This document shows positions 24,534 through 41,806 of a stretch of 42,034 nt of DNA, in pieces. Position numbers and translations under genes: made by a program. Position 1 is the stretch's first letter; every line of letters begins with the position of its first letter. Source of the DNA: Thermoplasmata archaeon (lineage in GTDB: Archaea; Thermoplasmatota; Thermoplasmata; Lutacidiplasmatales; UBA184); the NCBI GenBank assembly GCA_021798195.1, contig JAJZYH010000014.1, positions 1-42,034 on the forward strand. The letters run 5' to 3'. The notes beneath the pieces were generated by a model that saw only the letters and a list, made by a program, of their open reading frames with translations, had not been told where the DNA came from and did not search any database.

Positions 24534-24755
24534 TCAGACGGTCTCCAGCTCGAACAGCACATGGTGCCCGCGGAGCGTGCGGGTGACCTCGTCGGCCAGG
24601 ATCATGGCATCGGGGAGGCGGATGGGGCGGTTCCAGTCGTACCGGAAATCGTAGTTCCCCTGCGTGGGCCGGAAACCGAGCTCATGCAGCTTGTCCGCCA
24701 CGGAAGACGGGCTCGCCCCTTCACTGGAGAAGGTCACGCGCAGGTAGGTCTCCAT
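24534..24755 (-). CDS. Small conserved protein of unknown function (73 residues)
   Basis: A 73-residue protein with a clear alpha/beta pattern: strand METYLRVTFSS, helix SPSSVADKLHELGF, strands around GNYDFRYDW, helix LPDAMILADEVTRTL and a final strand HHVLFELETV. The beta-alpha-beta-beta-alpha-beta order suggests a ferredoxin-like fold. I recall similar short proteins in Thermoplasmata and methanogen genomes but cannot name a family. It has its own TATA candidate (GGTTATTCCT, about 31 bases upstream) and lies between galU and the CoaD fusion. Codon use and hydrophobic patterning support it as a real gene. Confidence 0.7.
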   Translation of the reverse strand: METYLRVTFSSEGASPSSVADKLHELGFRPTQGNYDFRYDWNRPIRLPDAMILADEVTRTLRGHHVLFELETV

Positions 24756-24780
24756 GGCGGACCCTCCCCACGGGCCAGGG

Positions 24781-24791: not shown

Positions 24792-25838
24792 TTACTCCCG
24801 CCGCGTCGCGGGGAGCCGCCGGTTCCGGGCGGCCAGCCGGGGCACGAAGGCCGCCGCCACGGCCTCCCGGACGGCCTCCTCCCGCGAAAGGACCCCACCG
24901 GAGAGGTACCCCAGGGCCCCCCCCGGCCGACGCCCCAATCGGGAGGGTCCCCCCAGTCCGCGGAGGGCCTCCTCCACGGTCGTTCCCCGCACCATGCCGG
25001 AGACCACCTCATCGGGATAGGGAAATCCCAGGGAGGTCGAGTGGAGGGTGCCTCCCGCCGCGTCCCGGATCACCACGCAATGGATGTCCTGGGGCCCGGG
25101 GCAACCGGGGGGCTGGGCCAGTGTGGACTCCACGCCCACCCCGTAGTCGCCCCGGCCCAGGGCGAAGCGCGCCCGGCGCAGGGCTCCCTCGTATCCGGCC
25201 CGCATGCCCCGGGGTTGGTCCCGCCGACCGGGGACGTCATGGGGCACGAGACGGATGGAGAGGTTGGGGAAGAGCTGGATGAAGGCGCGGCGGATCCCGG
25301 CGATCTTCACGGGGTTCTTCGTCCCCACCCCCACCACGAGGGGGCGCAGGCGCCGGCCCCGCGCATCCACGAGACCCTGGCGCATCCGCGTGGAGGAGAT
25401 GGGAAGGAGGTCGTCGGCGAGGATCCGCTTGAGGACGATCACCCGCAGCGGGGGAAGGCCCCGCCTCTTCCGGACCCGGTTCGCGGCCCGGGCCACGGGA
25501 GCCGTCTCCTCGCTCACCACCAGGCCCCGGGTCCGCCGCTCGAAGATGGCGCCCCACCGGTCCGTGAGTGGGATCACCCACCAGGAGCGATGGGGGAACC
25601 TCCTCCCCAGGTACTCCTCGAGCATCCGGCGGCGCTCGGCGAAGGGCCGGATCCGGCCCCGCTTGGACCTCCAGCGGCGGAGCAATCCGTCGGTGGTGAG
25701 CCCGATGCCCACCCGGGTGCCGTGCAAGAAGGCGGTCTCCAGGAGGGCCCGATGGCCCGCGTGCAGGCCATCGAAGGTGCCCCCCAGCACCACCACGGGG
25801 AGCCGTCGGATGCCTCGGGGACGGGAGGGGTCAGGCAT
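24792..25838 (-). CDS. Fusion of archaeal phosphopantetheine adenylyltransferase and DUF84 NTPase
   Basis: A 348-residue two-domain protein. Residues about 10-165 are an archaeal-type CoaD: GGTFDGLHAGH with the HxGH nucleotidyltransferase motif (about 19-29) and ISSTRMRQG. It should transfer AMP to phosphopantetheine to make dephospho-CoA. Residues about 167-335 are a DUF84/YjjX-type NTPase, beginning VVGVGTKNPVKIAGIRRAF, with the conserved GMRAGYEGALRRA and GVGVESTL strands; relatives hydrolyse inosine or xanthosine triphosphates. Fusing CoA synthesis to a house-cleaning NTPase is not obvious biochemically, though I recall similar fusions in Thermoplasmata. ATG 25838 overlaps the upstream stop by eight bases, so it ends the vWA/GTPase operon. 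Confidence 0.88.
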   Translation of the reverse strand: MPDPSRPRGIRRLPVVVLGGTFDGLHAGHRALLETAFLHGTRVGIGLTTDGLLRRWRSKRGRIRPFAERRRMLEEYLGRRFPHRSWWVIPLTDRWGAIFERRTRGLVVSEETAPVARAANRVRKRRGLPPLRVIVLKRILADDLLPISSTRMRQGLVDARGRRLRPLVVGVGTKNPVKIAGIRRAFIQLFPNLSIRLVPHDVPGRRDQPRGMRAGYEGALRRARFALGRGDYGVGVESTLAQPPGCPGPQDIHCVVIRDAAGGTLHSTSLGFPYPDEVVSGMVRGTTVEEALRGLGGPSRLGRRPGGALGYLSGGVLSREEAVREAVAAAFVPRLAARNRRLPATRRE

Positions 25839-26022
25839 GGGGACCGAAGAGGATGACCACGATGAGGACGATCCCCATGATCAGGAAGAGGTAGGTGTAG
25901 AGGGTCCGGGAGCGCATGGCCCTCGCCCGCTTCTCGGCGCAGACCGGGCCGCAGGTCCGGTCCTCCATCCCGATGGGTCGGCCGCAGACGGGGCAATGCT
26001 TGTGGGCCGGGAACTCGTCCAT
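25831..26022 (-). CDS. Zinc-ribbon single-pass membrane protein (DUF2116 family)
   Basis: A 63-residue protein. The N-terminal half has cysteine pairs and a His (HKHCPVCGRPI, then CGPVC with E-K-R-A) that form the treble-clef-like DUF2116 zinc ribbon, followed by a single hydrophobic helix (about 42-59). The length and layout match the archaeal family exactly; its function is unknown. A GGAGGTGAG ribosome-binding site sits just before ATG 26022, overlapping the stop region of the preceding 650-residue gene (gap of seven bases). It could be a membrane anchor partner of the cytoplasmic proteins encoded upstream; that is inference. Confidence 0.88.
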   Translation of the reverse strand: MDEFPAHKHCPVCGRPIGMEDRTCGPVCAEKRARAMRSRTLYTYLFLIMGIVLIVVILFGPHA

Positions 26023-26029
26023 GCGCCTC

Positions 26030-27982
26030 TCACCTCCGAGTGCGGCCCGGGGGAGGATTCTCGTCCGACCAGACGGAGCGCTCGGCGCCCACCTGGCGGA
26101 GGAGCTCCTGCCGCTCCTCGGTGAGCTGGGACAGGTGGCTCACCAGGGCGAGCCAGATCCGCCCCTGGCTCTGCAGGTTCCCTTCCACCCGGTCCAGGAT
26201 CGCCTTGGTCCGGTCCGCGATGTCGAGCTCCAGGCGTTTCATCTCGCCCCAGAGCTCCTCCCGGAGCTTGCGGAGTTTGGCATCCGAGGCCGGTGACTCC
26301 CGCCCGGCGGCGCCCTGCTGGATCTCCCCGATCCGGACCCAGGTCCGCTTCAGGATGGGGATCACCTTCTCGGTGAGGAGCTGGACCTTCTCGTCGACCA
26401 TCCGGACCTCGTCGCGCACCGCCCGATCCATCGCCTCGGTGTCCCCCCGGTACGCCTGGACCTCCTGGAGCAGCGCCTCCAGGCGCTCCCGCAGGTACGC
26501 CCGCTCCGCCGCCAGTGTCTTCTCCACCCGGTCCCGGAAGATCTCCTCCACCGAGGCCCGGACCTCGGCGCGGAGGGCCGGGGTCGTGGGGATGGAATCG
26601 AGGCGGCGTCCCAGTTCGTCCCCCACGAGATCCACCACCGCTTGACGGGTCGGGGGGGCGAGGTCCGTGGGAGGGGTCCCGGAAAGTCTCTCGGAGAACA
26701 CCTCCTCGATGCGCCGGTGGATCTCCTCGTCGAGCCGCCCCAGGAGCTCCCGGGGAAGTTCCAGGGCTTCGGGGACCTCCACGGGGCCGGGCCCGGGCTC
26801 CGTCCCCAAGGCCGGGATGGGCACGGGCGTCCCGGAGTCGTCCGGCGGCGGGGGAACATGGACGGGTCGCGGGTTCGGGGACCGCGCGAATTCGGGCTCC
26901 GGCCCCCCTCCCGAAGGGGATTTCCCCTGGAGGACGCGCGCCCGTTCCTCGGAGGTCCGGAAGATCCGGGCCAGTTCGCCCCTGCGGACCGGCCCGCGCC
27001 GGAACTCGGGGTCCGACGAACTCTCGAGGTATCGGGGGATCTCCGTCTCGTCGATCTCCTGGCGCAGGGCCTGGATCGTCTCCAGCGGGGGGTCCTCGGA
27101 GACCCACCAGGAGACGGGCACGTCCGGGTGCGAGGGCGCCGTGAGGGCCCGGGAACCGGGGGTGAGGTCCAGGACCCGAAGGCCCGCCGCCGTCCAGCTG
27201 GCGACCCTCTTCTGGTGCCGCTCTCCCATGGACTCCGCCGGAGGGACCCGGAGGACTCCCAGGGTGAGGGGAAACCTCCCCGTAAAATCGTTGAGGTTCA
27301 CCTGGGCCACGGACAGGTAGTACGGGATGGCGAAGATCCCCGCGAGGGCGACCATCGAGGAGGGGATCCGCTCCAGGAGAGTGAGGAGGCTCTCCAGCGT
27401 CTCGTTCCAGTTGCTGGAGACCAGGAGGAGCCGGGGGGAGGGGATGGGATCCCCGGGGAACCCGAAGGCCTGGGAGAGGATCTCCATGAGGCGCGGTTCG
27501 GGGGTTGCGTTGAGGGAACCTCGGGGAAGGTTCCCCATGGAGAGATACCACCGGCGGATCGCCCCGCCGGCCCCTCCGCGTCGCAGGATCTCCGAGGCCG
27601 TGAGGACCAGGGTCTTCATCCCCAGGCGGGGACGGTCCTCTGTGGAGAGGAACATCCGTCCCAGGCAGAGGTAGCGCCCGGAGTACCCCGGATAGAGGAA
27701 GAGGTTGTTGTAGAAGGCGAGCTTCGACGCCGGATCGGGGTCCCAGTAGTCCTGGGTGTCGCTCGCATTGATGGCCAGGTTCCCCACGAAGCGGACCTGC
27801 TCCAGGGTTTCCCGGCGTCCGGGAAAGTCGCCGGGCAGGGTGGTGTAGCCGGGGCTCTCGGCCTCGTTGTCCACCTGCCTCGACCAGACCACCGCCACCA
27901 GGGGGTTCGTCTCCCCCTCCCCCGGGGACCCCCCGGGAGCCTGGGAGGTCGGGGGGGCCTCCGCTGCGTTCCCCCGGCTCAT
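26030..27982 (-). CDS. GTPase-linked protein with N-terminal globular domain and C-terminal coiled coil
   Basis: A 650-residue protein I cannot assign to a named family. Residues about 26-330 look globular and alpha/beta, with a Tyr/Gly-rich segment (FYNNLFLYPGYSGRYLCLG, about 90-108) and a later patch LLTLLERIPSSMVALAGIF followed by strands. This order (N-terminal domain, a leucine-rich helix ending in IP, then a beta segment) recalls the GAP1 GTPase-associated proteins of bacteria; it is an impression from memory. Residues about 350-440 are a proline-rich linker and 445-635 are helical with heptad-like Leu/Glu/Arg spacing, likely a coiled coil. It starts one base after the GTPase stop. Probable role: binding partner or regulator of the GTPase. 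Confidence 0.78.
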   Translation of the reverse strand: MSRGNAAEAPPTSQAPGGSPGEGETNPLVAVVWSRQVDNEAESPGYTTLPGDFPGRRETLEQVRFVGNLAINASDTQDYWDPDPASKLAFYNNLFLYPGYSGRYLCLGRMFLSTEDRPRLGMKTLVLTASEILRRGGAGGAIRRWYLSMGNLPRGSLNATPEPRLMEILSQAFGFPGDPIPSPRLLLVSSNWNETLESLLTLLERIPSSMVALAGIFAIPYYLSVAQVNLNDFTGRFPLTLGVLRVPPAESMGERHQKRVASWTAAGLRVLDLTPGSRALTAPSHPDVPVSWWVSEDPPLETIQALRQEIDETEIPRYLESSSDPEFRRGPVRRGELARIFRTSEERARVLQGKSPSGGGPEPEFARSPNPRPVHVPPPPDDSGTPVPIPALGTEPGPGPVEVPEALELPRELLGRLDEEIHRRIEEVFSERLSGTPPTDLAPPTRQAVVDLVGDELGRRLDSIPTTPALRAEVRASVEEIFRDRVEKTLAAERAYLRERLEALLQEVQAYRGDTEAMDRAVRDEVRMVDEKVQLLTEKVIPILKRTWVRIGEIQQGAAGRESPASDAKLRKLREELWGEMKRLELDIADRTKAILDRVEGNLQSQGRIWLALVSHLSQLTEERQELLRQVGAERSVWSDENPPPGRTRR

Positions 27983-27983
27983 G

Positions 27984-29249
27984 TCAGGTGACTCCCGAAG
28001 GAGATGCCCCCGCGAGGATCCTCTGGCAGATCCGGGACAGGGGGAGGGTGGTGTTCACCATGACCGGGATCCCCGCGGTCAATCCGGTCCCTTCGTCGGA
28101 CTCGGCACCGGCGTCCCCATAGAGGAGGGGCCGCCCCTCTCCGGTGGCGATGGCCGAGGCCATGAGGAACGTGTCCTGGGTGATGTGGAAGTCGAGGCCC
28201 TCTCGAGCCAGGAGGATGCTCCCGAGGCCGGTGCCGTCCTGCCGGGTGAGGAACCCCTCCATGTCAAAGTTGCTCTGGTACCCCCGGCTGGTGAGGACCT
28301 GCTCCACCTCGAGGTAGAACTCCTTGAGGAGGTCGGCCTTGGAAATGGCCACCACGAGGGGGATCTTCCGCATGCGGCAATAGCGGAAGACCCCCCGGGC
28401 AAGGTTCACCTGCTGGGCGCTGTCCCGGAGGGAGGTGAGCTGGGGGGTGAGGAGGAGGATGATCCCCTGGGCGTCGGTGACGAAGCGGCCCATGAGGGTG
28501 AGGCCGCGCCGCCACATCTCCTGCCGCTCCGGCTTCCAGCTGTCGAACCGGGGGATGACCTGGCACTTCTCCCGGGAGATCTCTTCGAGGGGACCGTGGA
28601 TCCAGAGACGATCGTAGGTGAAGTAATCCGAGATGATGCCGCCCGCCTCATCCACCGTCCGTAGCTCCATGGGCCGGGTCCGGGAATAGTCGTCGGAGGA
28701 CCCATAGCGGAAACGCAGCGCCATCTCCACGAACTGGTTGTACTTGGTGGGCAGGGGGTACTTGGTGAGGACCCCTTGCTCCTCCCGGCCCGCGGCGAGC
28801 TCCACGAAGAGCCGGTTGGGGTCCTGCATGGGGCGGTTCACGTAGTGCCGCGTCGTGGCCTCCATGGGGGCCGTGGGGTTCGACGGGTCGGTGGTCTCAT
28901 AGGTGGTCTCCTCCAGGACCACCTCGTGGGTCAGGTCCCCGAAGAGGGGAATGGGATCCCCCTGCGGCCGGTGCGGGATGTAGATCACGGGGAGGTTCAG
29001 CCCGAAGTGGCCCGAAAGGTAGCGGAAATAGGTGGTCTTGCCGGAGGAGGGGATGCCCACCACGGCGATCTTGGTCACCGTTGGGGATGGGCTGGGTGCG
29101 GGGGCCGGCGGGGTCGGGGGAGCCCCCGTGACGGGAGGGGAAGGAGAGGGCGGAGCGCGGGGTGGCGCCGCGGGTCGGGGCGCTCCCCGGGGCCCCCGGC
29201 GCCCGTGAGAAGTTCCCTGCGTCGGTCGGGTTCCATCCTGCCGCGTCAT
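27984..29249 (-). CDS. Large P-loop GTPase with proline-rich N-terminus
   Basis: A 421-residue protein. The first 57 residues are Pro/Ala/Ser-rich and probably disordered. The P-loop is G65-IPSSGK-T72 (GIPSSGKT), the G3 motif is D200-E-A-G203 (TVDEAGG, where Ras-like proteins have DTAGQ), and the G4 motif is S303-K-A-D306 in place of NKxD. About 130 residues lie between G1 and G3, a large insertion for a small GTPase. The closest group I can think of is the GTPases (including double-GTPase families) found with GAP1-like and vWA proteins in bacterial conflict loci. Start ATG 29249 follows a purine-rich stretch and is 53 bases after the vWA stop. A frame extending to 31169 is a chance antisense frame. 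Confidence 0.85.
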   Translation of the reverse strand: MTRQDGTRPTQGTSHGRRGPRGAPRPAAPPRAPPSPSPPVTGAPPTPPAPAPSPSPTVTKIAVVGIPSSGKTTYFRYLSGHFGLNLPVIYIPHRPQGDPIPLFGDLTHEVVLEETTYETTDPSNPTAPMEATTRHYVNRPMQDPNRLFVELAAGREEQGVLTKYPLPTKYNQFVEMALRFRYGSSDDYSRTRPMELRTVDEAGGIISDYFTYDRLWIHGPLEEISREKCQVIPRFDSWKPERQEMWRRGLTLMGRFVTDAQGIILLLTPQLTSLRDSAQQVNLARGVFRYCRMRKIPLVVAISKADLLKEFYLEVEQVLTSRGYQSNFDMEGFLTRQDGTGLGSILLAREGLDFHITQDTFLMASAIATGEGRPLLYGDAGAESDEGTGLTAGIPVMVNTTLPLSRICQRILAGASPSGVT

Positions 29250-29302
29250 GTTCCCTTGCGCCTTCCCTCCCCCGGACCGTTCCCTGCTCTTGAAAAGGAT
29301 GC

Positions 29303-30907
29303 CTATCGCATCTCCGAGAGGGCGATCTCCACGAAATCCAGGAATCCGTCGATGGCCGGATGCCGGCCCGTGTTGGCGAGGCGGCAGTCCTGCAGGAGGC
29401 CGAAGATGTCCTCCACCAGCTTCTCGTGGTCCGCCGCCCGGCCTCGCTGGATGCCCTGGTACGTGCGGCGCAGCTCCAGGAGACGGTCGAACATGGTCTC
29501 GAGCATCCCCCCGAGGTTGGGAGCCAGCCGGCGCGCCTCCACGTCGGCCGCCTCGAAGAACTGGACGAGGGTCGCCGTGGCCCTGTCCTCCCGGACCTTG
29601 GCCTGGAGGATCCCCAGCCTCCGGACGATCCGCCGTCGCTCCGGCTCCGGGAGCTTCTCGGCTTCGGCCCAGGCCTGGGCGAGGAACCTTTCCGCCTCGG
29701 GCACGTTGTTCAGGGCGAACTGGACCCGGGCGTGCCAGTAGAACCGCGTCACCGGGGGCAGGCGGGCACCCCGCTGGTAAAGGAGGGCCTGCACCCGGTT
29801 CCAGTCCTTGGCGAGGAACGCTTCGGCGATCTCGCCCACCGGCCCGTACTTTTCCGCCAGGTGACCGGAGGGCGCCTGGGTGTCCTCGGAGGAGATGAGG
29901 TCGATGATCACCGGGGAGGCGAGAGGGGAGGCCGGTTCCGAGGAGGTCCGGTGGGTCCCCAGATGGTGCACCAGGTCGTGTCCGTCCACCTCCCGGAGGG
30001 CCCGGGCGGCGAGGGCCGCGTGCTGCGCCACCTCCTCGGGGCGGAGGGCCCCGATCTCTTCCGAGCCCTCGAAGGGGACATCCACGAAGGCGTTCACCAT
30101 CTCCGCAAAGAGCTCGGCGGAATTGGTCACTTCCTGGTAGCGGGCCACGGAAAGGTTCGCCACCCCCTGGGCGCGGACCCGGAAGCGGTCCAGGAACGCC
30201 TGCATCCGAGCGCTGTCCACCCCCTTGTCCCGGTCTTCCCCGCTCCCGATCCCGATGACGTGGAACGTGAGGTGGCTCCCGGGGGGGAGGAGGTGTTCCA
30301 TGAGGTTGGCGCGTCCGCGACCGGTCCCCCCCGGTGCCCCGTTGGGGACGGTCTCGAGCTCGGGGATCGTGTACCACTGGGACATGTTGTCCCAGCCGTC
30401 GGTGACGAGGACCAGGTTGCCCACGACACGCCCTCCCTCCGTCCTCAGGAGGTCCGCCCCCAGGGCCACGGCATCCCAGATGGCCGAACGGCCTGCCGGA
30501 TTCAGGAGGCTCACCATGTTGTCCACCATGGGGCGGCTCTCTCCGTTGATCTCGGTCAACGGCACCAGGACCCGCGCGGTGGAATTGAAAACCACGAGCC
30601 CGAAGCGGGATCGCTGGGCCATGACCGAATCCAGCACCCGGAAGGTGGCCGTCCGTGCCACGTCGATCTTGCGGCGGTTGGCGAAGGGGTCTTCCGTGTC
30701 CGGGAGCGGGGCCAGCATGCTCTTCGAGATGTCCAGGACCAGGACGTTCCGGGAGGCGGGGCTGATACCGGGTGCGGTCGACACGCCCGACGTTGCCGTC
30801 ACCCCGGTCGCCTCCCCGCCCCGCGCATCCGGTCGGACGGAGGATTCCGTTCCCGTATCTTGTGTGGCATGGGCTCCGAGCGCCGTCCCGGGATCGTGGA
30901 TCCCCAA
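29303..30907 (-). CDS. vWA-domain protein with helical C-terminal region
   Basis: A 534-residue protein. About 50 disordered residues precede a von Willebrand factor A domain (about 53-290) with a metal-ion-dependent adhesion site: D59-x-S61-x-S63 in LVLDISKSM, a Ser (S141 in GRSAIWDAV) where many family members have Thr, and D170 in LVTDGWDN. Residues about 340-534 are alpha-helical, and RARLPPVTRFYWHARVQFALNN-like spacing suggests TPR-type helices. vWA domains often bridge partners through a bound metal ion. It heads an operon: GTPase 53 bases on, then the 650-residue partner, DUF2116 and CoaD fusion. Start is TTG 30907, 28 bases from a TATA candidate; no ATG or GTG of comparable quality precedes the domain. 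Confidence 0.85.
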   Translation of the reverse strand: MGIHDPGTALGAHATQDTGTESSVRPDARGGEATGVTATSGVSTAPGISPASRNVLVLDISKSMLAPLPDTEDPFANRRKIDVARTATFRVLDSVMAQRSRFGLVVFNSTARVLVPLTEINGESRPMVDNMVSLLNPAGRSAIWDAVALGADLLRTEGGRVVGNLVLVTDGWDNMSQWYTIPELETVPNGAPGGTGRGRANLMEHLLPPGSHLTFHVIGIGSGEDRDKGVDSARMQAFLDRFRVRAQGVANLSVARYQEVTNSAELFAEMVNAFVDVPFEGSEEIGALRPEEVAQHAALAARALREVDGHDLVHHLGTHRTSSEPASPLASPVIIDLISSEDTQAPSGHLAEKYGPVGEIAEAFLAKDWNRVQALLYQRGARLPPVTRFYWHARVQFALNNVPEAERFLAQAWAEAEKLPEPERRRIVRRLGILQAKVREDRATATLVQFFEAADVEARRLAPNLGGMLETMFDRLLELRRTYQGIQRGRAADHEKLVEDIFGLLQDCRLANTGRHPAIDGFLDFVEIALSEMR

Positions 30908-32120: not shown

Positions 32121-32153
32121 GGGGGCTTCCCGGTGACTCGACGGCCCCTCGAT

Positions 32154-32228
32154 GCGCCGGTGGCTTAGCTTGGATAGAGCAGTCGGTTCCTAACCGACCG
32201 GTCGTGGGTTCGAATCCCATCCGGCGCG
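32154..32228 (+). tRNA. tRNA-Arg (anticodon CCU)
   Basis: The sequence folds as a complete cloverleaf. The acceptor stem GCGCCGG pairs with CCGGCGC without mismatch, followed by discriminator G at 32228. The D stem pairs GCTT with GAGC. The anticodon stem GTCGG/CCGAC closes the loop TTCCTAA, giving anticodon CCT (positions 34-36), which reads AGG arginine codons. The T arm is GTGGG-TTCGAAT-CCCAT, with the expected TTCGA loop. CCA is not encoded and no intron is seen. It is isolated between two protein genes. Confidence 0.96.
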
Positions 32229-32247
32229 TCGCTCCGGGCCTTTCCGG

Positions 32248-39025: not shown

Positions 39026-41806
39026 ATGGCCCGTCGTCCAATCCCGCAGAAGACCCCTCCGACGGGCGCCGGGCGGTCCGGCGAACCCCGCAAGAACCCT
39101 TCCTCGACACCCAGTGACCCGGGCCGGGCGGGGGGGAGACCTCCTCCCTCCCGACGGGCATCCCCCTTCGTACCCACCATCGGGGACGTGACCCGGGCCC
39201 GGGAGGAGGCCCTCCTCCAGTTGCGCCTGGGCCGCCAGGCCCTCTATCTGGGTCTCCTCGTGGGGGCCGTGCTCTTCGTGGATTCCTACCTCTCCCTCCT
39301 CTTGGAGACCACGGGCCTCCTCAACGAGGGGCAGGTGCTGCTCCGGCAGTCCCTCCCCTTGCTTGTCCCCGTGTTCGCCGCGGCCTTCCTGTCCGTGGCG
39401 CTCTTCTTCGAGAAGCTGGAACCCTACGGCTTCTGGCCCTTCGAGCCCCACTTCGCCGTGACGGTGGCCTCCGTCCCCCTCTCCCTGGCACTGGCATCCC
39501 TCTACCTCCTCCACCTCCTCCATTTCGGTCCGGACCTCATCCAGGCGTCCCTCCCCTGGACCTACCCCCTCGCCATGGCCGCCATCTCCCTCCCGCTGGT
39601 GGGCTTGGGGCTCACCTGGAGGGGAAGCGCCCCCCGGAAGATCGCGAGCCTCGTGCTGGCGGCCCTTCCCGTCGCCCTCTTCTTCCCCATCGATCTCGCC
39701 CTGGGACGGATCTCCTTCGACCTCGTCCTCGCCGTGTCCTTCTCGGGGGAGGCGTTCCTCACCATTGCGGCGGGGGCCATCCTCCACCTCATGGCCACGG
39801 CCACGCGGGCCCAGGAGCGGGAGGTGGTGGCGGGGGGGCACGAGAAGCTCTTCCAGATCTCCGCCGATCTCTCCAACCGCGCCGAAGCGCTCAACTTCCG
39901 CGAGGAATCCCTCCTCCGACGGGAGTCCGACGTGGCCTCCCAGGAGTCGGACCTCCAGGAACGGTCCCGCCTCCTGGAGGAGCGGCGTCGGGAGCTGGAC
40001 ACCCTCGAGGCCCACCTCCGGGGCCGGGGAACGGAGCTCCTCACCCGGGAGCGGGAGCTCATCCCCCGACAGGCTGCGGTGGAAGCCCAGGCGGAGTCCC
40101 TCACCCTGGAGAAGTCCCGCCTCGTGGATCGGCTCAAGGACCTCGAGGGATCCCTCCGGCAGCTGGCCGAACGGGAGAAGACACTGCTCACTCGGGAACA
40201 GGCGGTCCGCCAATCGGAGGTGGAGAACCAGGCCCGATCGGCGGAGATCGCCCGCCTCCGGGAGCAGCTCAAGGCCGCGGACGCCGAGGCACGACGCCGG
40301 CTCGAGGAGGCAGAGACCCGGCTCGGCCAGGCGATGCAGAAGGAAGCGGAGGTGCGCGCCCAGCTCTCCGTCTCCGAGGTTCCCGTCGCGATGCGGGCCA
40401 ACCTCCTGGTCCGGGAGCAGAGCCTGGGCAGCCGGGAGGCCAACCTGGAACTGGCCGAGAAGCGCCTTGCCGAGGACCGCACGGCGCTGGGGGAGAAGAC
40501 CCAGGCGCTGGAGAACGCCCGTGCGGCCCTCCGGAAGGAGACCGCTACGCTTTCGGAACGGCAGGCCGCATTGTCTACCCGGGAGGCGTCCCTCGCCGCC
40601 AAGGAACGGGAGGTGGAAGTGCAGACCAACCTCCTCAAGGCGGCCACCCAGCGCCACGAGGACGAGATCCGCAAGTACTACGATCTCACCCGGACGCTCA
40701 GAACCACTGAGGGGGAAGCGGCGCTCCGGGTGAGCGAACTCAAGGCGCGCGAAGAGACGCTGTCCCAGCGGGAGTCCCGGATCGCCGCCCGGGAGGGCGA
40801 GGTCCGATCTCTGTGGGAATCGCTCCGGCGCCGGGAGGCGGAACTGGAATCGCGAAGAGCCCTCCTGGAAGGGAGGGAGGCGGCCCTCCGGCTCCGGGAG
40901 GCCCGGGAGTCCCCCGGAGGGGCCTCCACGTCGCGGATCCCCTCTTCGCCGGCGGCTTCCTCGGGAACTGCCACCACGGTCCCCAGTTCCCCTGGGTCCA
41001 GCCGGGGGGGACCCCCTTCACCGTCCCGCCCCCTCGGGAGCCCGCTACTCCCTGCTCCCCCGGCTCCCTCCCGGGATCGTGTGCCCACCGGGACCCAAAG
41101 GCTCGATGAGCTGCTCCAGGGAGGGCTCCCCCCCCGCTCCCACCTCGCTCTCGTGGGTCCGGCGTTCACCGGCAAGGAGATCCTCCTCTACGGGTTCGTG
41201 GCGGAAGGGCTCCGGAAGGGGCAGCCCGCACTGGTCATCGCCGCGTCCCGGGCTCCCCGGGAGGTGGCCCAGGAGATGGGCGTCATCCTGCCCTCCCTCG
41301 TGGAGTACGAGCAGGCCGGTCTCCTGCGCTGGATCGACGCGTCCACCCGCGACCTTACGGCCCTCCCTGCGGAGACGCGGAGCCTCCGGGGGATCACCGT
41401 GGAAGGCCCCGGGGATTACACCGGCATCCTGCAGGGGGTGAGCCGGTTGATCCGGGAACTGGAGCCCCGGGGAACGCCCGTTCGGGTCGCCTACCTCTCC
41501 CTCTCCGCCTCGTTGACCCAGAAGGAAGATCGGCCCGCGTTCGCTTTCCTGCAGAACCTCGTGGGGATACTCAAGGTGAAGGACGTGGTGGGCGCCTATT
41601 CCGTGGACCAGGGGGTCCACGGCGAGCAGCAACTGGAAGCCATCCAGACCCGGATGGACGGAAGCCTCCTGTTCAAGGCCGAGGGAGGGAAGAACTTCCT
41701 CTCCGTGGTGGGGCTGGGAGACATCCCGACCCGGACGTGGGTGGAGTATCGCTTCACCCAGAGAGGGCTCACCCTGGGGAGCTTCTCCCTGGAGAGGATC
41801 CGCTAG
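39026..41806 (+). CDS. Membrane-coiled-coil-KaiC-like fusion protein
   Basis: A 926-residue protein in four parts. About 50 disordered residues; about six membrane helices (roughly 65-260); a very long charged helix (about 265-635) in which R-E and L-E-x-R pairs recur at short intervals, a strong coiled coil; a Pro/Ser linker; and a RecA/KaiC-like domain (about 685-926) starting VPTGTQRLDELLQGGLPP. Its P-loop, GPAFTGKE (711-718), ends in Glu (E718) where Thr or Ser normally holds magnesium, so classical ATP hydrolysis is doubtful; related archaeal KaiC-like proteins may share this. It may be a membrane-anchored sensor or scaffold. The preceding pseudo-receiver is a plausible partner. The stop shares CTAG with the convergent tpiA. 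Confidence 0.87.
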   Translation: MARRPIPQKTPPTGAGRSGEPRKNPSSTPSDPGRAGGRPPPSRRASPFVPTIGDVTRAREEALLQLRLGRQALYLGLLVGAVLFVDSYLSLLLETTGLLNEGQVLLRQSLPLLVPVFAAAFLSVALFFEKLEPYGFWPFEPHFAVTVASVPLSLALASLYLLHLLHFGPDLIQASLPWTYPLAMAAISLPLVGLGLTWRGSAPRKIASLVLAALPVALFFPIDLALGRISFDLVLAVSFSGEAFLTIAAGAILHLMATATRAQEREVVAGGHEKLFQISADLSNRAEALNFREESLLRRESDVASQESDLQERSRLLEERRRELDTLEAHLRGRGTELLTRERELIPRQAAVEAQAESLTLEKSRLVDRLKDLEGSLRQLAEREKTLLTREQAVRQSEVENQARSAEIARLREQLKAADAEARRRLEEAETRLGQAMQKEAEVRAQLSVSEVPVAMRANLLVREQSLGSREANLELAEKRLAEDRTALGEKTQALENARAALRKETATLSERQAALSTREASLAAKEREVEVQTNLLKAATQRHEDEIRKYYDLTRTLRTTEGEAALRVSELKAREETLSQRESRIAAREGEVRSLWESLRRREAELESRRALLEGREAALRLREARESPGGASTSRIPSSPAASSGTATTVPSSPGSSRGGPPSPSRPLGSPLLPAPPAPSRDRVPTGTQRLDELLQGGLPPRSHLALVGPAFTGKEILLYGFVAEGLRKGQPALVIAASRAPREVAQEMGVILPSLVEYEQAGLLRWIDASTRDLTALPAETRSLRGITVEGPGDYTGILQGVSRLIRELEPRGTPVRVAYLSLSASLTQKEDRPAFAFLQNLVGILKVKDVVGAYSVDQGVHGEQQLEAIQTRMDGSLLFKAEGGKNFLSVVGLGDIPTRTWVEYRFTQRGLTLGSFSLERIR

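Follow-up and report, generated by a model that had tools for sequence, protein, structure and literature searches.

Longin and DENN proteins of eukaryotes serve in GTPase control in membrane traffic and nutrient sensing. The C9orf72-SMCR8 complex is a GTPase-activating protein (GAP) for ARF and has an arginine finger located in a longin domain (PMC8213707), and FLCN and GATOR1 are likewise GTPase regulators (PMC8213707, PMC3521125). The DENN module follows the order longin, three-layer α/β and all-α, and prokaryotic roots of longin/DENN proteins have been traced to roadblock/MglB-type proteins (PMC3521125). GTPases are also part of the DO-GTPase-GAP1 conflict loci, which are mobile and effector-rich (Kaur et al. 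2020 eLife, PMC7159879). Here, we analysed a three-gene cassette in a 42,034-nucleotide stretch of DNA (contig JAJZYH010000014.1; the window) from a Thermoplasmata archaeon, encoding a von Willebrand factor A (vWA) protein, a P-loop GTPase and a third protein, P3. The cassette probably acts as a cellular switch not described before, and not in defence. With moderate confidence, we read it as a GTPase switch of three proteins, passed on vertically within one acidic-soil Thermoplasmatota family, in which P3 would be a stalked longin/DENN-like regulator and the vWA protein an adaptor.

The cassette lies on the minus strand, where the vWA gene (ending at 29303) is followed by those of the GTPase (29249-27984) and P3 (27982-26030), with intergenic gaps of 53 bases and 1 base, respectively. 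An initial annotation of the locus, made from the letters alone, had given gene order, strand, coordinates and gaps exactly. All three were accepted as real genes because they are conserved across 20 relatives, at a mean column identity of ~58% for the GTPase, ~57% for the vWA protein and ~33% for P3.

Scanning GTDB genomes for the GTPase family yielded 75 loci, 74 of which were retained after dropping one from Zipacnadia, whose Obg/YchF-type P-loop (L165) was a chance match. The 74 loci all derive from Thermoplasmatota metagenome-assembled genomes, one being Candidatus Lutacidiplasma silvani; two records bear less specific titles, 'bacterium' in one case and 'Euryarchaeota archaeon' in the other. 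The vWA gene was found directly upstream of the GTPase gene in 74/74 loci and P3 downstream of it in all 66 loci whose contig reaches far enough, and the gene order was identical in 20/20 mapped regions. The separation of the three genes in related genomes, named at the outset as a result that would speak against a common system, was thus not encountered. In 54/64 loci, 1 or 4 bases are shared by the stop of the GTPase gene and the start of P3; these two genes are translationally coupled. In a sample of 101 genomes, covering 60 further genomes of the window's family and 40 outside the family, P3 and the GTPase each occurred in 50 genomes, which belong to seven genera of the window's own family; the 40 genomes from outside had neither. 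When 293 genomes of the phylum were searched with profiles, the same family alone came up, plus one weak P-loop match, and no convincing outside relative was revealed.

The vWA, GTPase and P3 genes are all missing from nine genomes of the family, six of which have a completeness of at least 90%. At the four cassette-less sites inspected (L213-L216), the flanks are kept, with eL31 and aIF6 on one side and DUF2116, CoaD, a 73-aa gene and DUF5611 on the other. One of these sites is nearly empty (~370 bp), while between aIF6 and DUF2116 the others (L213:2716-5390, L214:3936-5246, L216:4076-5392) hold an aldolase-like gene, of HpcH/HpaI type by eye, and an eS17-like ribosomal gene; one site additionally carries a TnpB-like transposase gene (the names aIF6, aldolase-like, eS17-like and TnpB-like were assigned by eye). 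Since the three genes are absent together and the flanks are kept, the unit was gained or lost as a block. DUF2116 and CoaD-DUF84 were rejected as members because both stay where the cassette is missing. The three genes are, therefore, kept or lost together as one unit, which supports the proposed conserved and coupled set of GTPase, vWA protein and regulator-like third protein.

The eL31-aIF6 flank is common to 14/21 regions, and DUF2116 and CoaD are each found downstream of the cassette in 16/21. In other genera, including genus g2 (L062, L069, L080), the trio stands in a different context yet is intact. Upstream of the cassette in the window, there is no eL31-aIF6 flank, unlike in other genera. 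The cassette is present in single copy, and the trees of vWA protein, GTPase and P3 are congruent, with distance correlations of 0.85-0.93. Unlike mobile conflict loci, the cassette is vertically inherited. No viral copies were found in IMG/VR, and a Pseudoalteromonas plasmid match was a chance one.

P3 (26030..27982, 650 aa; 559-1326 aa in relatives) consists of a globular head, a variable stalk and a conserved helical end, in agreement with the globular front and helical tail seen initially. Searches against Pfam, NCBIfam, PHROGs and PADLOC gave no significant family for P3; for the whole cassette, these searches and that of PDB sequences returned only vWA and generic P-loop signals. Matches of P3 to apolipoproteins and tail fibres reflected helical composition only.

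The AlphaFold2 (AF2) model of the P3 head (residues 24-350, 62 sequences) reached a predicted local distance difference test score (pLDDT) of 91.4 and a predicted template modelling score of 0.91. Its elements run β-β-α-β-β-β-α-α, then β-α-α-β-α-β-α-β, then long helices; in the model, the layout appears to match the order of the DENN module, with longin-like, α/β and helical parts. The predicted longin-like domain (27539..27901; AF2 model, Foldseek and conservation) contains the invariant loops RQVDNE and EDRPRLG; two arginines of the loop that joins strand 4 to strand 5, Arg117 and Arg119, are invariant. It is followed by an α/β and helical part that is DENN/d-DENN-like in order (26933..27496; AF2 secondary structure). 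When the P3 head was compared with PDB by Foldseek, a chain of the C9orf72:SMCR8:WDR41:ARF1 complex ranked first (E 1.6e-3, probability 0.47). Further down the top 25 came two Lokiarchaeal longin chains, at ranks 11 and 19, and, at rank 25, a chain of GATOR1. The second match was unrelated (E 5.8e-2), and the BFVD viral library gave background only, starting at E 0.11. From this predicted fold, the role of GTPase activator or effector, initially offered for the third protein, is now favoured.

Behind the head follow a linker or stalk, Pro-rich in the window (26603..26932), and a C-terminal helical domain (26063..26602) that was recovered as a separate conserved match in relatives. The linker spans 32-688 residues over 21 genomes, being Pro-rich if short and A/E/L/K/R/Q-rich if long, as in most relatives, which suggests that the P3 head is carried by a stalk whose length is adjustable. 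We noticed no transmembrane segment in P3, for which no formal prediction of such segments was made.

The GTPase (27984..29249) is a 421-aa protein with a Pro-rich N-terminus of ~58 aa, as seen from the alignment of relatives; its Pfam GTPase-type matches are weak. Its G1 motif or P-loop, GIPSSGKTT (29031..29057), conforms to GIP[AS]SGKTT in 71/72 loci examined; G3 is DEAGG (28638..28652), invariant in two alignments; G4 is SKAD (28332..28343), found in 69/72 loci and invariant in the GTPase alignment of relatives; and G5 is SA (residues 365-366 in the window). Together, these fit the pattern of P-loop GTPases of the TRAFAC type (GxxxxGK[ST], DxxG, [NTS]KxD, SA). DEAGG and SKAD had been taken for replacements of the usual G3 and G4, which was wrong, since they agree with DxxG and [NTS]KxD, respectively. 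Ras-like GTPases have their catalytic Gln at the position corresponding to Gly204, the last residue of DEAGG, which was invariant in the alignments. As the catalytic Gln is absent, help from a partner in hydrolysis is a reasonable inference. Foldseek matches of the AF2 model of the GTPase included kinesins, G-alpha and MglA, the latter with the highest probability (0.82) among the matches listed; the kinesin matches were discarded because the model was too poor for use.

The vWA protein (29303..30802) matches Pfam VWA_2 with E 4e-8 and 34.3 bits against a cut-off of 27; VWA_2 matches were obtained for 21/21 members. Its reading frame opens at TTG 30907, and a GTG preceded by GGAGG lies at 30802. 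The GTG is probably the start, since it yields ~499 aa and the relatives measure ~500 aa (478-552 aa). The vWA domain (30380..30745; Pfam stretch 55-176) carries a site of the metal ion-dependent adhesion type, DxSxS...GRSAIWDA...TDGWD, conserved over the loci. The adhesion site had been called intact; its motifs are indeed present, with one conservative change, Ser (in GRSAIWDA) for the usual Thr in nearly all relatives. The C-terminal half (29306..30040) looks helical in the alignment of relatives and is perhaps TPR-like, with single weak TPR_19 and ANAPC3 matches; it ends with the highly conserved HE..VE.iFGLLQD...LDF.EI.LaEMR. Pro-rich disorder, initially ascribed to all three proteins, is evident at the N-terminus of the GTPase and in the linker of P3, but not in the vWA protein.

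Several results weigh against the switch with a longin/DENN-like regulator. The TM-scores of the P3 head matches are low (0.19 for the whole chain, 0.35 for an Asgard longin chain), the root-mean-square deviation exceeds 10 Å and the best match has the probability of 0.47 given above; C9orf72-like and DENN sequence models did not match P3 at E values up to 10; and the GTPase model is poor (pLDDT 61). With TM-scores of 0.19-0.35, the longin/DENN match is coherent, yet unproven. These low scores, together with a PAS domain chain among the Foldseek matches of the P3 head, the family-restricted distribution and the long variable stalk, would also agree with a structural or organising complex specific to the lineage, with the GTPase as an assembly factor dependent on nucleotide and an unrelated α/β PAS-like fold, converging on longin, as the P3 head. 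We regard such a complex as unlikely, given that longin/DENN chains are over-represented in the top matches and that the GTPase gene adjoins P3.

A divergent archaeal DO-GTPase-GAP1-vWA system, in which P3 would be a GAP1 protein beyond sequence detection that coordinates sensing with the GTPase in a conflict or stress response, seems to us rather unlikely. Using a bacterial DO-GTPase profile built from ten sequences of Armatimonadota genomes, 21/21 archaeal GTPases ranked first among 826 open reading frames (ORFs), with E 3.7e-6 to 0.05; hhalign of the GTPase family against bacterial DO-GTPases gave 94.7% over 56 columns; and Pfam DO-GTPase2 matched one of the 21 members with E 0.043, below its curated cut-off. 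The kinship to DO-GTPase families raised by the initial annotation is borne out weakly by these values. The signal lies, however, largely in motifs common to all P-loop GTPases, and the DxxGE glutamate (Walker B) of most bacterial DO-GTPases compared is absent, the invariant DEAGG having its Glu directly after Asp; these sequence data hence argue for a weak relation to DO-GTPases and not for membership. The gene order, GTPase then partner, is that of PMC7159879, and vWA genes occur in GAP1-N2 loci. In a comparison by eye with bacterial GAP1-N2 proteins collected for the purpose, the order of strands was likely the same, and the loop that corresponds also had an Arg. Aligned visually, P3 and the bacterial GAP1-N2 and -M parts looked strikingly alike, but this likeness is not claimed because it failed the shuffle and hhalign tests: profile-profile alignment of P3 with GAP1 equalled shuffles (Z 0.15), and hhalign gave 0.2%. 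No Pfam model of GAP1-N, -M or -C matched P3, the GAP1-N2 model did not find it and a solved GAP1 structure was not retrieved by sequence search. The GAP1-type identity suggested for the third protein is not supported by these searches. The cassette has no zinc ribbon, and effectors, FNIII or GASH components were not seen next to it; its site is fixed in most genera and comprises the same three genes only.

We consider a defence or toxin-antitoxin type conflict module very improbable. It could appeal to a superficial likeness to vWA/NTPase ternary systems and to a weak EAD2 match in P3 (E 0.005, below cut-off); the EAD2 match was dropped, as it was confined to the window's protein (1/21 members), and PADLOC matches were weak. 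The stable site (eL31-aIF6 in 14/21 regions), single copy and vertical inheritance with congruent trees, as well as the failure to see any nuclease, variable effector or mobile, viral or plasmid copy, speak against the conflict system that had initially been entertained.

Returning to the three-protein switch, the GTPase would be the switch itself, its hydrolysis or exchange depending on a partner owing to Gly204 in place of the catalytic Gln. The P3 head may bind the GTPase and serve as GAP or guanine nucleotide exchange factor, with Arg117 or Arg119 of the β4-β5 loop as candidate arginine finger, and the stalk and helical end could, like a tether, hold the switch some distance away or bring about its dimerisation. 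The vWA protein might take up an acidic ligand, partner or client via its metal site, which the helical half would dock on the complex. The output is probably not killing; more likely, a structure in the cytoplasm or near the membrane is assembled or organised in space. We hold a cytoplasmic organising switch to be the most likely role, at roughly even confidence.

A wider, tentative proposal, which we hold possible and put forward with reserve, is that P3 is a prokaryotic longin-DENN-type regulator outside Asgard archaea, standing beside its own GTPase; the DENN architecture or its precursor would then be pre-eukaryotic and may underlie bacterial GAP1. If this is true, a strictly linked archaeal GTPase and longin/DENN-like partner would offer a small system in which to test how this family of regulators originated. 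Such a pair would also point to a function for some of the novel genes of the Lutacidiplasmatales ancestor, in which 383 gene-family originations have been described; close arCOG homologues exist for 22% of them (PMC9287336).

Seven bases downstream of P3 in the window follows the DUF2116 membrane zinc-ribbon gene (25831..26022, minus strand; Pfam E 1.7e-13), which is probably co-transcribed with the cassette and is kept in genomes without it. Downstream of it lie a CoaD-type nucleotidyltransferase gene fused to a DUF84/NTPase domain (24792-25838) and a 73-aa gene of no known family (24537-24758), which comes after CoaD in 15/21 genomes and occurs in cassette-less genomes, too. A tRNA-Arg (CCT) gene is located at 32153-32230, upstream of a pirin gene. 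In a 926-aa ORF (39026-41806), a KaiC-type ATPase stretch is confined to the last third (Pfam E 1.6e-12), and for its first 680 residues, Pfam gave no match at E 0.01.

Compared with the described systems, the cassette resembles the DO-GTPase-GAP1 (GAP1-N2) loci in that a multi-domain partner is encoded directly after the GTPase, in the possible company of vWA genes and in a weakly similar GTPase profile. Unlike these loci, it is not mobile and has no detectable GAP1, DxxGE, zinc ribbons, FNIII/GASH or variable effectors. With C9orf72-SMCR8, FLCN-FNIP and NPRL2/NPRL3 (PMC3521125, PMC8213707), P3 shares the predicted longin, α/β and helical order, a paired GTPase and invariant arginines in the longin-like part. 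It differs from them in being archaeal, without sequence match and with low TM-scores, and in the stalk and helical end behind the head; the cassette GTPase, with 421 aa and large inserts, contrasts with the small Ras-like partner of longin-DENN regulators. The MglA-MglB (roadblock) pair likewise combines a prokaryotic GTPase with an adjoining longin/roadblock-type partner, and MglA was the most probable Foldseek match among those listed for the GTPase. Unlike MglB, P3 is much larger and is predicted to follow the order of longin and not the permuted one of roadblock, and the archaeal cassette always includes a vWA partner.

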